From positions 1 to 39,447 of the forward strand of contig JAUNEB010000010.1 of the NCBI GenBank assembly GCA_030525795.1: a stretch of DNA of 39,447 bases, read 5' to 3'. This DNA is from Aerococcaceae bacterium (GTDB lineage: Bacteria; Bacillota; Bacilli; Lactobacillales; Aerococcaceae). Position numbers and translations under genes: made by a program. Below the pieces are notes generated by a model that made no database searches, was not told where the DNA came from, and saw only the letters and a list, made by a program, of their open reading frames with translations. Shown here piece by piece: positions 17,975 to 39,447 of the stretch. Numbering within the stretch: the first letter of the stretch is position 1; each line of letters begins with the position of its first letter.

Positions 17975-18688
17975 TTAATGTGCTTTACGTTTCGCCAACA
18001 TGTCCGCATAATACTTGCGACTGTTGTTCAAGACGTCAAGAAAATCAATGTATAATTTCGTGCCTTTGAGTTGTGCCATGAGTTCAACATACGTTGCGAG
18101 TTGCTTGTATGGTGTCAAGACGGCTTTGCGCAAACCTTTGACGTCGTAAGTCGTTTTCGTGAGCGCGTCTTGCGAGCGTGAGGCAAAAAGTTGCTCAAAC
18201 GCGGTGTTGCTTTCGCTCAAATTATCCACAAACTTCTTGATAGACAAAGTGCGGACATGCTCGTTATAAGGTGCTTGCCCGAGTTTCTCCAACAAGTTGA
18301 CGACTAACGCTGTTTCGGCTTCGTAGTTGCTCGACTTGGCTTCTTTGTATTGGGCAAATAATAGTTTGAGTGCGGTGTAAGCAGACTTCTCGTTGTCGCG
18401 CTTGGTGACGCGATAGGGTTTCACGCTGTCGTAGAGGGCTTGCAAGTCAGCATCACGCAGGGCATCTGCTTGCGAAATCGCGGTTGACTTCTCGCTCGCG
18501 CGCACTTGTTCGAGTGACTTTTGCAGTGGCACGAGGTCGGTGCGAATTTTGACGAGGAGAGGTTTGATGTGCTCCTCGTTGTTGTAAGGCAACTCCGCTT
18601 TGGTTAAATCATCCAAAAAACGTGTGAGAAATTGGACGAGTTCGGCGTGGCGCAGGTGCGGAATATGTAAGTTTGTGAGTTTGGTCAT
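17975..18688 (-). CDS. DUF6261-like protein
   Basis: The 237-residue product is predicted to be almost all alpha-helical, with no signal peptide, no membrane segment and no cysteine. Its layout (a short start with KLTNLHIPHLRHAE, a PYNEH motif in the middle, a final NNSRKYYADMLAKRK) resembles the DUF6261 family, known to me mostly from Bacteroidota and some Firmicutes, with no established function. The label is from memory and tentative. The start at 18688 has GGAAAGGAAAC upstream. Directly before the gene, from 18712, lies the regular palindrome array; a promoter at 18953-18982 would place the whole array in the leader of this mRNA. Confidence 0.75.
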   Translation of the reverse strand: MTKLTNLHIPHLRHAELVQFLTRFLDDLTKAELPYNNEEHIKPLLVKIRTDLVPLQKSLEQVRASEKSTAISQADALRDADLQALYDSVKPYRVTKRDNEKSAYTALKLLFAQYKEAKSSNYEAETALVVNLLEKLGQAPYNEHVRTLSIKKFVDNLSESNTAFEQLFASRSQDALTKTTYDVKGLRKAVLTPYKQLATYVELMAQLKGTKLYIDFLDVLNNSRKYYADMLAKRKAH

Positions 18689-18952
18689 GTGAGTTTCCTT
18701 TCCTGGTGGGTGTCGCACGTTGCGACAGCGGTAATATTTGCGGTAAAGATTCGTCGCACGTTGCGATCAGTTGCAGGCAATTCGATTCATCTTATCGCGT
18801 TGTGCGATGGCGTGAATGTCGAGACGAACACCCCGTCGCAACTTGCGACGGGCACTTTATATTCTATTGGGATTATCGCAACTTGCGAAAACGTGCTTGA
18901 TGTTGTCGGCATGTCATCGCACATTGCGATGTCGCTCTTTAATTCTGATACG

Positions 18953-18982
18953 ATTATCGCATAACAAGCGTTTTGCTCTCAA
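18953..18982 (-). promoter_or_regulatory. Putative promoter reading through array 1 into the DUF6261-like gene
   Basis: On the minus strand TTGAGA (complement of 18977-18982), 18 bp ending in TGC, and GATAAT (complement of 18953-18958). The transcript would carry about 250 bases of leader including six array hairpins. Confidence 0.5.
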
Positions 18983-18983
18983 T

Positions 18984-19016
18984 ACGAAACAAGACGACAG
19001 CTAAGTAGTCTGTCGT
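18984..19016 (-). terminator. Possible terminator of the membrane protein gene
   Basis: On the minus strand ACGACAG pairs with CTGTCGT around nine bases and is followed by CTTGTTTCGT, a weak T-tract. It is nested in the outer TTATCGCA/TGCGATAA pair of array 1. Confidence 0.35.
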
Positions 19017-19056
19017 GCGATAAAACAAAATAATATAATTACATTTTTTGGGATGG

Positions 19057-35445: not shown

Positions 35446-35572
35446 CATGAAAAGTTACGCATTTCAATTCGGGAATGAATCCTTTTTACTAAATTTAATT
35501 TGCCCTTTTATCATAAAGTTTTCAACCATTATTGTCAATACGTTTGCCAAAATATTTCCTTTGCCCGCGCGT

Positions 35573-35578
35573 TATGAT
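35573..35578 (+). promoter_or_regulatory. -10 box of the small plus-strand gene
   Basis: TATGAT, 36 bases before the ATG; no good -35 is seen at the usual spacing. Confidence 0.35.
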
Positions 35579-35614
35579 AAAATGAACAAAAAGAGTAAAG
35601 AAAGGATGTTTTTC

Positions 35615-35887
35615 ATGCAAAGTATTTTATCCATTTTGGCTTATGAAACCAAAGTTGCAACGGGCGCTTATTTTCACTTAAAGACGGACTGGTTTGAAAG
35701 CGATCAAGAAATCCAAACCATTATTATTGACCAAGATAATGTTCACTCAAAATTATTGTCGCTTTATCCAAAAAACTTTGTCATGTACTTAGAACAAGAT
35801 CCTCACGGCAGTATTTATCGCACCAACTTTCCTTTATACCGCCCCGAAAATTCCGATGTCTATTCAGTGGAGTTTCCTTCTGAATAA
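35615..35887 (+). CDS. Small protein of unknown function
   Basis: I do not recognise a family. The 90-residue product has no signal peptide, membrane segment or cysteine. It is rich in aromatic residues and acidic overall, with a predicted alpha/beta mix. The start at 35615 is eight bases from AAAGGA; longer in-frame readings go back into the promoter. It stands alone on the plus strand between the divergent polyamine operon and the palindrome array 2, with a strong terminator directly behind it. Confidence 0.75.
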   Translation: MQSILSILAYETKVATGAYFHLKTDWFESDQEIQTIIIDQDNVHSKLLSLYPKNFVMYLEQDPHGSIYRTNFPLYRPENSDVYSVEFPSE

Positions 35888-36001: not shown

Positions 36002-36465
36002 GTCACAAGGTGTGACAGTGTGAATCAGGTTTCAGGGAGCGCGTCACAATCTGTGACAGTGTGAATCAGGTTTCAAGAAGCTCGTCACAACTTGTGACGG
36101 CCATTCAATATTCCGAAGAGATTATCCCTTGCACGGATAATACCATCCGATTTGAGAACACGTTATCCGAGCCTCGGATGATATGAATTTATTTAAGTTC
36201 TGTCCGTCAGACGCGCGGATGAGGCAAATCTATTTGAATTCTCTCCGTCAGAGTGTCTAACGGTGAATTATTATTCCAAAAAGACTATCCGACGCTCGGA
36301 TAATACCATCCGATTTGAGAACACGCTATCCTAGCCTCGGATGATATGAATTTATTTAAGTTCTGTCCATCAGACGCGCGGATGACGTAACCTTATTCGG
36401 GTTCTAATTGTCAAGCGTGCGGATGACATAAATCTATCCACGTTCTATCTGCCAGACACATGAAT
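36002..36465. repeat. Array 2: palindromes at a 40-41 bp period with changing words
   Basis: Three GTCACA-NNN-TGTGAC palindromes (36002-36016, 36043-36057, 36084-36098) are exactly 41 bp apart. They continue as ATTATCC/GGATAAT (centre 36131), ATCCGA-GCC-TCGGAT (36172), TCCG/CGGA (36211), CCGT/ACGG (36254), TATCCGA-CGC-TCGGATA (36294), ATCCTA-GCC-TCGGAT (36335), then decaying units near 36375 and 36418. An 89-bp segment (36134-36222) is repeated at 36297-36385 with three mismatches, a shift of 163 bp, four units. It lies between two converging terminators; I see no gene in 35888-36616. Confidence 0.85.
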
Positions 36466-36616: not shown

Positions 36617-38560
36617 TTACGCACGACTTTTATTCGCGACTTCTTGTTGTAATTGGTTGACGAATGTGTCGTAGTCTAAGGTTTGTGAGTTGCTTGAGCC
36701 GTACTGACGGACGTTAACGGTTTCGTTTTCGACTTCTTGGTCACCGATAACGATTTGGTAAGGGACTTTTGATGTTTGAGCGGCACGAATTTTGTAACCG
36801 AGTTTTTCATTACGTAAGTCCATTTCCACGCGGAAACCTTTTGCCTTCAAATCTTCGTAAATCGCTTGTACGCGATCGCTATGTGCGTCCAAGTTGACAG
36901 GAATTAGCACGGCTTGGACTGGCGCCAACCAAGTTGGGAATGCGCCTTTGTACTCTTCGATTAAGTAGGCAACAAAGCGTTCCATTGTCGACACAACGCC
37001 GCGGTGGATAACGACTGGGCGGTGTGTATCTTGGCCGTCTTCGCCAACGTACGTCAAGTCAAAACGTTGCGGCAACAAGAAATCTAACTGAATCGTTGAC
37101 ATCGTTTCTTCGATTCCAATCGCGGTTTTGAATTGCACGTCCAATTTTGGTCCGTAAAAGGCCGCTTCGCCTTCTGCTTCAAAGTAGTCGTGACCTGATT
37201 CGTCCATGGCTTCTTTTAGCATGGCTTGGGCTTTTTCCCACATATCGTCATCGTCAAAATATTTCTCTTTATTTTGCGGGTCGCGGTAAGATAAGCGGAA
37301 ACGGTAGTCCGTGATGCCGAAATCTTTATAGACATCTTCAATTAAGTTGAGGACACGCGTGAATTCTTCTTTGATTTGGTCTGGTCGCACAAAAATATGG
37401 GCATCGTTCAACGTCATTTCGCGAACGCGTTGCAAACCAGATAAGGCACCTGATTTTTCGTAACGGTGCATCATGCCTAATTCAGCAATCCGAATTGGCA
37501 ATTCGCGGTAAGAATGGATAGTATCTTTATAAATCATCATGTGGTGTGGGCAGTTCATCGGACGCAAGACAAGCATTTCGCCGTCGCCCATATCCATTGG
37601 TGGGAACATATCTTCATGGTAATGCGCCCAGTGCCCTGATGTTTTGTATAAATCGACTTTTGCCATAATCGGCGTGTAAACATGGTCGTAGCCTAAAGCG
37701 ATTTCCTTGTCCATAATATAGCGCTCAATGACGCGGCGAATTGTCGCACCTTTTGGTAACCAAAATGGTAAGCCAGAACCCACTTCTTGGCTGACCATAA
37801 ACAAGCCTAACTCTTTACCGAGTTTGCGGTGGTCACGCTCTTTAGCCTCTTCACGTAAACGTAAAAATTCGTCCAAATCTGCTTGGTTGAAAAAGGCCGT
37901 TCCGTAAATACGTTGCATCATTTTGTTGTCAGAATTGCCACGCCAGTAAGCGCCCGCCAATGACAATAACTTAAAGACTTTAATTTTGCCGGTAGAAGGC
38001 ACGTGAACACCACGACACAAATCGATGAACTCTTCTTGTTGATACACCGTAATCGTTTCGTCTTCTGGCAAAGCTGTAATCAATTCAACTTTATACGGAT
38101 CTTTTGCAAAAATTTCTAAGGCTTCTTGACGGCTTACTTCACGGCGCACAATCGGATAGTTTTGCGCGATGATTTTTTTCATTTCTTTTTCGATGGCTGG
38201 TAAGTCTTGTTCCGTCACTTGCACATCACCACGGTCGGTATCGTAATAGAAGCCGCTATCAATCGCTGGCCCCACCCCAAAATGTACTTCTGGGAATAAG
38301 CGGGTCAAAGCGTGCGCCATTAAGTGTGCCGTTGAGTGGCGCATAATTTGCAAGGCTTCAGGACTTTTTTCGGTAATGAGTTCGATGGCGCCATTGGCAT
38401 TTAATGCGCGATCGTGGTCGACAAGTTCGTCATTAAATTTACCGGCTAATGTCGCTTTCGCGAGCGACTTACTAATCGACTCTGCAACTTGCACAGGCGT
38501 CACACCTGCAGGATATTCGCGTTGATTCCCGTCTGGGAACGTTAATAAGATTGTGGACAT
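36617..38560 (-). CDS. thrS: Threonyl-tRNA synthetase
   Basis: ThrRS charges tRNA-Thr. The 647-residue protein has the TGS domain (about 1-62), the editing domain with [11 protein letters not shown] (near 76-86), and the class II core with RPMNCPHHM (zinc Cys), [18 protein letters not shown], and the anticodon-binding domain from about 545. The ATG at 38560 with AGGAGG nine bases upstream is the real start: a reading frame extends 58 codons further but passes through the T-box and its terminator. Expression should rise when tRNA-Thr is uncharged. Confidence 0.97.
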
Positions 38561-38586
38561 TGTTTTTTTCCTCCTAAAAAAATAAT

Positions 38587-38812
38587 CGTCCCATTGCACC
38601 AATCGGCACAATGGGACGTTGAATACGTGGTTCCACCCAAATTCAAGAGCAACTGCTCTCCTTGATTGACTTAACGCGTCATCACGTTTGACGATACTAT
38701 TATTTCCCATCAAATTTTTGTACAAAGTGGTCAAATTAGCCGTTCATAAAGCGTTGCACCAACCCGCTTCTCTCTTACAATCCCCTGCCAAAAAGGTGTC
38801 TTTGCATTAACA
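38587..38812 (-). promoter_or_regulatory. T-box leader of thrS
   Basis: On the minus strand the T-box sequence TGGGTGGAACCACG (complement of 38626-38639) is followed by a terminator CGTCCCATTG/CAATGGGACG (complement of 38587-38618) and a run of T before the ribosome site. Upstream, the AGAGAG and GCGGGTTGGTG elements fit Stem I, and an ACC threonine codon in TTGACCACT (complement of 38729-38731) is the likely specifier. Uncharged tRNA-Thr would bind and prevent termination. The specifier choice is tentative, the T-box itself certain. Confidence 0.93.
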
Positions 38813-39041: not shown

Positions 39042-39447
39042 TTATTTTTCTTCTTCTTTTTTCTTGAGTCCTGCTGCTAACATCATTGCAGACAAGCTTG
39101 CGATTGCTGCTAATGGAAGTAGGTTCATGTGGCTTTCGCCAGTGTTTGGTAACATCGCACCAGATTGACGAGTAATTGGTTTTGGTTGTGTGCCAACAAC
39201 GTTCAAATCTTTTACTGGAATAAAGTTTGAAGCATTAGTATTGTTGCTTTGGTTGCCGCCACCGTTGTTATTTGTGTTGGTGTTTGTATTAGTGTTTGTG
39301 CCACCGCTATTTCCACCATTGTTGTTGGTGTTGGTATTTGTACCACCGTTGTTGCCACCATTAGTGTTTGTACCTTGACTATCACGTCCTGGCTGACCTG
39401 GTTGCCCTGCTGGGCCCTGTGGGCCTGTTGCTCCAGTTACTCCTGGT
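39042..39447 (-). CDS. C-terminal part of a collagen-like LPxTG surface protein (partial)
   Basis: The gene enters the window from the right and ends at the TAA at 39042; 135 codons including the stop are visible. First come Gly-X-Y collagen-type triplets (PGVTGATGPQGPAGQPGQPG, complement of about 39387-39446), then a Gly/Asn/Thr-rich linker of about 45 residues, then the sortase signal LPNTG (near 39148), a hydrophobic segment and a KKKEEEK tail. The protein should be covalently anchored to peptidoglycan by sortase A. Collagen-like proteins of Gram-positives form triple helices and often serve in adhesion. The linker repeats may vary between strains. N-terminal domain not visible. Confidence 0.9.
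   Translation of the reverse strand, partial: PGVTGATGPQGPAGQPGQPGRDSQGTNTNGGNNGGTNTNTNNNGGNSGGTNTNTNTNTNNNGGGNQSNNTNASNFIPVKDLNVVGTQPKPITRQSGAMLPNTGESHMNLLPLAAIASLSAMMLAAGLKKKEEEK

Follow-up and report, generated by a model that had tools for sequence, protein, structure and literature searches.

A 41-bp Palindrome Array Before a DUF6261 Gene Suggests a Protein-and-Array System Not Yet Described

Introduction

The 39,447-nt stretch of an Aerococcaceae genome analyzed here (contig JAUNEB010000010.1, hereafter the window) carries a row of short palindromes at an almost constant spacing directly upstream of a gene for a DUF6261 protein. What is such an array for, and does it belong with the gene beside it? 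In the literature searched, DUF6261 was found in one paper, as a name in a mutation table in the accessible part of that source (PMC10376253), and no paper was found for PF19775. No description of a pairing of DUF6261 with an array was found in the same literature, and the accessible part of PMC5771137 contained nothing on such arrays. The results below indicate that gene and array together form a module that recurs elsewhere, through which DUF6261, a family so far without an assigned function, gains a functional lead by way of a non-coding array. The association of gene and array is strong; the mechanism offered for it is put forward as a proposal.

Architecture of the Palindrome Array

The original prediction described TCGCA-NNN-TGCGA palindromes stepping by 41, 41, 41, 40, 41, and 40 bp, and word and spacing searches recovered exactly this arrangement. 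The array ends 24 nt from the start codon of the DUF6261 gene. The features of the region are as follows.

17978..18688, minus strand: DUF6261 gene, 237 aa (PF19775, E 6.2e-36), with the stop codon at 17975–17977
17975..18921, minus strand: segment (gene and array) common to the copy on C14 (L001 4180–5126), from the copy alignment
18713..18725, no strand: palindrome 1, TCGCA-CGT-TGCGA, word match
18754..18766, no strand: palindrome 2, TCGCA-CGT-TGCGA, word match
18795..18807, no strand: palindrome 3, variant TCGC-GTTGT-GCGA (TCGCGTTGTGCGA), one mismatch
18836..18848, no strand: palindrome 4, TCGCA-ACT-TGCGA, word match; arms extend to CCCGTCGCA/TGCGACGGG
18876..18888, no strand: palindrome 5, TCGCA-ACT-TGCGA, word match
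18917..18929, no strand: palindrome 6, TCGCA-CAT-TGCGA; the match with the C14 copy breaks off inside it, at 18921
18954..19023, no strand: seventh, split palindrome, TTATCGCA (18954–18961) and TGCGATAA (19016–19023), read from the sequence
18953..18982, minus strand: promoter-like TTGAGA-18-GATAAT with TG before the second hexamer (TGcGATAAT), consensus match only

The exact word TCGCANNNTGCGA was found at 18713, 18754, 18836, 18876, and 18917, and the starts of palindromes 1–6 were separated by 41, 41, 41, 40, and 41 bp. The halves of the split seventh palindrome lie 54 nt apart, and its TCGCA begins 40 bp past palindrome 6. With one mismatch or none, TCGCANNNTGCGA was matched seven times in the window, six of them in the array, against a shuffled mean of 2.79, and at least seven matches were reached in 3 of 100 shuffles. 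The word count alone is not decisive for the significance of the array; the spacing is. Chains of at least three perfect palindromes (5-bp arms, 3-nt center) at 40–42 bp occurred twice in 421,210 bases, made up of the window and 20 stretches of its own genome, and both lay inside the window; with control spacings equally wide, the mean was 0.12 and the maximum 2. The array of the C14 copy is missed by this criterion because its third unit is the variant palindrome. Outside the two gene-linked arrays, the exact word was found only twice in the genome (control, 1), on C11 and C32, with no further site of that word at 41-bp spacing around either. None of the columns was invariant in the five linkers of the window array, so that no box motif at a constant position was found outside the arms.

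The promoter-like site reads through the array into the DUF6261 gene, and its -10 element overlaps the half-site TGCGATAA; promoter consensus matches numbered three in the stretch scanned, against a shuffle mean of 1.5. The leader RNA folded better than shuffles on both strands (z −2.8 and −3.1), and Rfam at gathering scores returned 0 matches in the window.

The DUF6261 Protein and Its Genomic Setting

The window protein matched PF19775 with 124.1 bits (curated cut-off 27), and all 28 members of an alignment of the family (A1) matched it at E 1 or better. DUF6261 was the only Pfam family above cut-off for the window protein, with no transposase family among them. Neither the Y1 (HUH) transposase of the RAYT family nor the Nop domain was among the best 25 of 70 Pfam families for A1, and a profile comparison of DUF6261 with ten IS110 proteins gave a probability of 0.2–0.4%. 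Among the PADLOC, NCBIfam, and PHROGs matches listed, no family was common to more than 2 of the 28 members; the best PADLOC hits were to single members (Cas12a, 1/28, E 0.0005), with none for the window protein. A known DNA-binding domain was not found among the Pfam, PADLOC, NCBIfam, and PHROGs families listed, and charge was uninformative, the median pI of 121 DUF6261 proteins being 7.7. A sequence-profile search of the PDB gave six hits (E 0.0016 to 0.99), which were set aside; the best was a C-type lectin chain, and several others were designed proteins. No relative of the window protein was found in phages and no match in plasmids, and a search of viral contigs for close relatives of two query proteins returned none.

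The seven window proteins around the array were assigned by a Pfam scan to DUF6261, LysM, Fic/HTH, lactonase, aldose epimerase, and AAA, with one lacking a family, and no cas genes were among them. The neighbors of DUF6261 appeared unrelated between loci when 11 of these were compared by eye. CRISPR arrays consist of regular repeats with variable linkers, a description that also fits DUF6261 arrays; the repeat core of the latter, however, is only 13 bp long and palindromic, and the ∼28-bp linkers repeat in some arrays. Acquired spacers had not been indicated in the initial reading of the locus, and they are likewise unsupported here.

Comparison of Two Copies in One Genome

In the genome of the window (77.7% complete), DUF6261 was found only on C14 and at C16:18026–18484. 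The C14 paralogue is 98% identical to the window protein and is also accompanied by an array, and the segment shared by the two copies runs from the stop codon into palindrome 6. The two copies stand at unrelated sites, and neither a terminal repeat nor a target duplication was seen at them by eye. Substitutions between the copies amounted to 0/55 in the arms, 3/15 in the centers, 2/44 in the four flanking nucleotides, and 13/99 in the remaining linker, with 2/20 in the 20 nt before the gene, 8/474 at codon positions 1 and 2, and 46/237 at position 3. The arms differed significantly both from the remainder of the array (Fisher P 0.0045) and from codon position 3 (P 4.6e-5). In this one pair of copies, selection is the likely cause of the unchanged arms, as judged from the substitution counts, although gene conversion could have produced them instead.

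A Conserved Period Upstream of Related Genes

Among 295 genomes of the order of the window, by inference Lactobacillales, 12 matched PF19775, and among 197 of the genus of G059, by inference Streptococcus, 65 did (63 above cut-off). The genus of the window gave matches in 2 of 4 genomes, the phylum of G296 in 6 of 296, the family of G296 in 61 of 120, and the family of G309 in 45 of 148; all these counts take in the center genome. The Bacteroidota side includes a Prolixibacteraceae record, the genome of which is G296. Up to 14 gene matches were found per genome (G631), and the 127 loci studied are the best matches only, a subset of all, some of them mutual orthologues.

For each locus, the lag from 15 to 120 with the best self-match, whatever its strength, was determined within ≤1200 nt upstream and downstream of the gene. 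It fell at 40–43 or 81–85 upstream of 108 of the 127 loci and downstream of 9, the latter being chance level, as the class covers 9 of 106 lags and about 11 are expected. The upstream and downstream counts were 24/31 vs. 1 in the first set, 8/9 vs. 0 in the second, and 76/87 vs. 8 in the third. The class was fixed after the first set and before the other two were counted, and the nine-locus set was fetched after the idea had formed, with z >10 in four of its hits and <4 in the other four. In the 87-locus set, 63 of 67 upstream regions with z >4 were in the class, and 0 of 7 downstream. The misses were L036, L037, L041, L042, L048, L053, and L055 in the first set, L058 in the nine-locus set, and 11 loci in the 87-locus set, including L139 and L145, which are runs of N. 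L150 was missed by the lag test, yet it has a 41-bp palindrome array.

Palindrome-to-palindrome distances, for which arms of at least 6 were required and no period was assumed, peaked at 41 (13), 42 (16), and 82–84 (22) in 125 upstream regions (background, 0.86 per distance). All remaining distances between 10 and 99 stayed at 5 or fewer, and 21, 31, and 63 bp gave 1, 0, and 0; downstream, small excesses occurred at 42 (6), 40 (4), and 22 (4). As the other whole-turn spacings (21, 31, 52, and 63 bp) were not enriched upstream, a fixed unit is kept and not any helical phase. Arrays were also assembled unit by unit, with a builder that accepted only 41 or 42 ± 2 bp, and its own spacing table is not independent evidence for the period. 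It gave 65 arrays, or 63 after removal of the N-run loci L145 and L139, with the arrays of the window and L001 not among them; unit number was 4–14 in these 63 arrays of four or more. An arrangement of two palindromes per unit 21 bp apart was considered as a rule and rejected: the second-center separations scattered, and 21 bp was not enriched.

Words, Linkers, and Protein Identity

Palindromy exceeded that of column-permuted units (at ≤5/100) in 34 of the 63 arrays, where about 3 were expected, and 29 did not pass. The nearest relative studied outside the genome of the window (L149, 56% amino acid identity) has seven TCGC-type sites exactly 41 bp apart, TCGC[A/T]nnn[T/A]GCGA being perfect in five and imperfect in two, and L150 (52% identity) has five TCAGA-nnn-TCTGA sites, also exactly 41 bp apart. 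Three columns are invariant across the six linkers of L149, of which three, however, are near-copies. The first unit of L149, centered 298 nt before the gene, differs from its other units in that ATCAGCC...GGCTGAT arms around the TCGCA core make it a long, nearly perfect hairpin. Linkers are near-identical in L027, L028, and L030, and the arrays of L035 and L038 stop hundreds of nucleotides from the gene.

The two copies in the genome of the window share one word, and words differ among the clear arrays of a single genome, G028 (L027–L030, L032, and L033). Over 37 loci (666 pairs), word similarity was correlated with protein identity (rho 0.25, Mantel 0/500 permutations), the word of the window being entered by hand, and linker similarity over the same pairs gave rho 0.004. 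In the 14 pairs above 70% protein identity, the linkers were alike too (0.68; words, 0.76). In these comparisons, the word tracks the protein, and the linkers appear to do so only among the closest proteins. A constant period under changing words in related genomes had been named at the outset as support for a real system, and the lag and palindrome-distance tests found such a period.

That the array is an ordinary tandem repeat, decayed and functionless, is hardly credible in this light. Repeat units do duplicate and drift, and 19 of the 127 loci have no top lag in the class; on the other hand, one gene family is linked to the arrays with one period in two phyla, the arms are unchanged between copies, and the word follows the protein. 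The second and third lag sets, the copy comparison, and the word-versus-protein test already contradict such a repeat. The original prediction had itself pointed to a decayed tandem repeat: drift of the linkers was indeed seen, but decay did not extend to the arms, which show 0 substitutions between the two paralogous copies.

Arrays Without the Gene

A second 41-bp array with different words, absent from the original prediction, is present in the window.

36003..about 36460, no strand: array without a DUF6261 neighbor, from palindrome searches; last units weaker, by eye
centers 36009, 36050, and 36091, no strand: three GTCACA-nnn-TGTGAC
center 36131, no strand: ATTATCC..GGATAAT
center 36172, no strand: ATCCGA-nnn-TCGGAT
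center 36294, three units on from 36172, no strand: TATCCGA-nnn-TCGGATA

The same 40–41-bp register runs across its GTCACA-type and TCCGA-type units, and it lies between convergent open frames (35447–35887, plus strand, and 36617–38734, minus strand). Neither of the two DUF6261 genes found in the incomplete genome is accompanied by these words. In G796, which has one DUF6261 match with TTACAAAYA-type sites beside the gene, the gene's own word occurs elsewhere as an 11-unit array (L155) and in shorter groups (L153 and L154). The gene's word was found as single sites in G808 (L152 and L178) and as a six-unit array far from the gene in G825 (L179); L179, L152, and L154 all lie beside the same GTPase-like gene. 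At one mismatch, the TTACAAAYA-type pattern was found in 11 of 148 genomes (reversed control, 1), three of which (G820, G843, and G818) lack a DUF6261 match. The hits in G820 and G843 are inside an open frame that is also present in G507, and that in G818 overlaps an open frame, which indicates that chance hits occur. By eye, two Bacteroidota genomes (L180 and L181, around 2200–2550) seem to carry mosaics of several palindromic words ∼21 bp apart, among them TTACAAACA, with words in common with the L063 array.

Gene-less arrays suggest a genome-wide role, be it DNA organization, regulation, or supply of small RNAs. They also bear on the possibility of a self-propagating repeat family, in which DUF6261 would help to copy or move either gene and array together or bare arrays. 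RAYT proteins are thought to copy or move REP palindromes, and RAYT genes have such palindromes on either side, with others at distant sites. The DUF6261 gene resembles them in having palindromes that also occur away from it; DUF6261 arrays differ in their fixed 41–42-bp tandem spacing. We consider propagation of this kind improbable. It would account for the two copies at unrelated sites with a shared segment bounded by the stop codon and by a point inside palindrome 6, for genomes with as many matches as G631, and for arrays without the gene. However, no transposase family was above cut-off for the window protein, the clear arrays of G028 differ in word and so are not recent copies, and the two copies of the window's genome showed neither terminal repeat nor target duplication by eye.

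Phased DNA Sites as the Preferred Reading

The reading that we prefer, with about even confidence, is that the array consists of phased double-stranded DNA sites that would be bound by the DUF6261 protein of the adjacent gene, in cis and in trans. It draws, at the level of sequence, on the linkage of gene and array, the period, the palindromy, the unchanged arms, the word that follows the protein, and the gene-less arrays. From these we infer that DUF6261 recognizes the arms in their DNA form, binding as a phased oligomer, and thereby regulates or organizes DNA. A DUF6261 dimer or oligomer would recognize the fixed arms (here TCGCA/TGCGA) and tolerate the 3–4-nt center, and successive sites would be bound on one helix face because 41–42 bp is about four turns. 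In cis, binding would extend over promoter and leader of the gene that encodes the protein, leading to autoregulation; in trans, this protein would also occupy arrays elsewhere, and paralogues would avoid cross-talk through different words. Phased protein-binding sites had been suggested from the first, and they are still the best reading. Counted against DNA sites are the covariation of the flanks (see below), which a pure protein site would not need, the lack of a recognized DNA-binding domain among the families listed together with a median pI of only 7.7, the folding of both leader strands above shuffles, the lack of enrichment at other whole-turn spacings, the scarcity of the exact word outside the two gene-linked arrays of its own genome, and gene conversion as another possible source of the unchanged arms in the one pair of copies.

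The fixed spacing, with a word that changes with the protein in two distant groups, points to a protein-and-array system that appears to be undescribed. A wider proposal, in which each DUF6261 paralogue would read its own word at about four turns, both beside the gene and in separate arrays, as a widespread bacterial addressing system with up to 14 gene copies in a genome, falls somewhat short of even confidence. In this proposal, word and protein would have diverged jointly across two phyla under an unchanged spacing, and the correspondence of protein and word could be read straight from genome sequences, for DNA and RNA read-out alike. The natural protein–word pairs could serve for learning a recognition code.

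In iteron or parC/parS-type arrays, the gene of a DNA-binding protein is found with its own sites at phased spacing and is autoregulated. The DUF6261 modules are similar in the pairing of gene and array, the phased spacing, the autoregulation proposed here, and a site word that varies with the protein, as in the correlation above and in L149 and L150. They differ in the many copies per genome, with different words where these were read (G028), in the absence of a recognized DNA-binding domain, and in the lack of a plasmid match for the window protein.

DNA or RNA Read-Out

The array could instead be transcribed, cut to ∼41-nt units, and loaded onto DUF6261, in the manner of TIGR-Tas stem-loop arrays on TasA; each unit would be a 5–9-bp stem with a ∼28-nt loop, or mini-hairpins. 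A hairpin confined to one transcribed strand should show itself there by more G.U pairs than A.C mismatches. Among mismatched arm pairs in 23 arrays, G.T numbered 30 and A.C 41 (8 loci vs. 9), with no strand preference. Arm changes in 44 arrays comprised 268 single, 30 compensated, and 13 uncompensated double changes. The ratio of 30 to 13 hints at some pairing constraint, but it is biased upward, as the arms of the unit-built set were chosen to maximize pairing, which favors compensated pairs. Where positions varied on both arms, 35 of 50 arrays paired better inside a unit than across units, under the same bias. Flank covariation outside the arms was weak (37/69 vs. 28.8 expected, P 0.009) in a sample made up of the window array, the array at 36003, L149, and L150. 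Folding of whole arrays at 16 loci was better for the sense strand in some and for the antisense strand in others. In Bacteroidota, TAnnTTTG was found within 150 nt before 62 arrays 13 times in sense and 6 in antisense, and in the next 150 nt outward 2 and 8 times, a weak signal. Taken together, wobble, compensation, covariation, and folding seem to favor double-stranded sites, though not decisively.

An RNA array is the main rival of the DNA reading but, on balance, unlikely. It is encouraged by the TasA loci with tandem palindromic stem-loop arrays described in the accessible part of PMC12045711, the promoter-like site reading through the window array into the gene, the sense excess of TAnnTTTG, and the compensated changes. 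Against it stand the wobble pairs without strand bias, the linkers, which have no invariant column in the window array and are near-identical in L027, L028, and L030, so that there is no variable guide, and the protein itself, with only 0.2–0.4% in the comparison with ten IS110 proteins, no Nop among the best 25 of 70 Pfam families for A1, and no phage or (for close relatives of two queries) viral-contig relative. It is very improbable that the array acts only through RNA hairpins in the leader that control how the DUF6261 mRNA is transcribed or translated. The 24-nt distance to the start codon and the possible promoter at the far end of the array would suit such hairpins, but arrays hundreds of nucleotides from the gene (L035 and L038), arrays without the gene, and mismatched pairs without strand bias would not.

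The nearest published system, similar in appearance, is TIGR-Tas. In the accessible part of its description (PMC12045711; Faure et al., 2025), TasA loci have tandem stem-loop arrays with palindromes that are "variable but consistently palindromic," and TIGR dual-repeat arrays most often have 5 to 15 units. As far as that part of the source goes, both systems have a small protein gene beside tandem palindromes that differ between loci, and unit numbers are similar (4–14 for DUF6261; 5 to 15 for TIGR). DUF6261 arrays differ in mostly having one fixed word each, some with identical linkers, in keeping one period in two phyla, and in not being found in phages. The linkers of the window array also hold no fixed motif, arms or shifting positions aside, and DUF6261 has no sequence-profile link to IS110, as compared by sequence alone. 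The module is provisionally not assigned to TIGR-Tas, because the loop motif was not found and the profile comparison gave no support for a Nop domain. Should DUF6261 prove to be Nop-like, guide-RNA systems would be extended to the chromosomes of common bacteria.

Arrays and Repeats in Open Frames

Gene callers could be misled by the arrays at L028 6504–7029 and L033 3193–3671, which can be translated as long open frames encoding repeated peptides. Lag-42 signals at window position 39210 and at L168 19288 were rejected as array candidates, as they resemble coding repeats by eye. At the end of the window (39060–39447, minus strand), the DNA appears by eye to encode collagen-like repeats with an LPXTG-like tail, cut by the window end.
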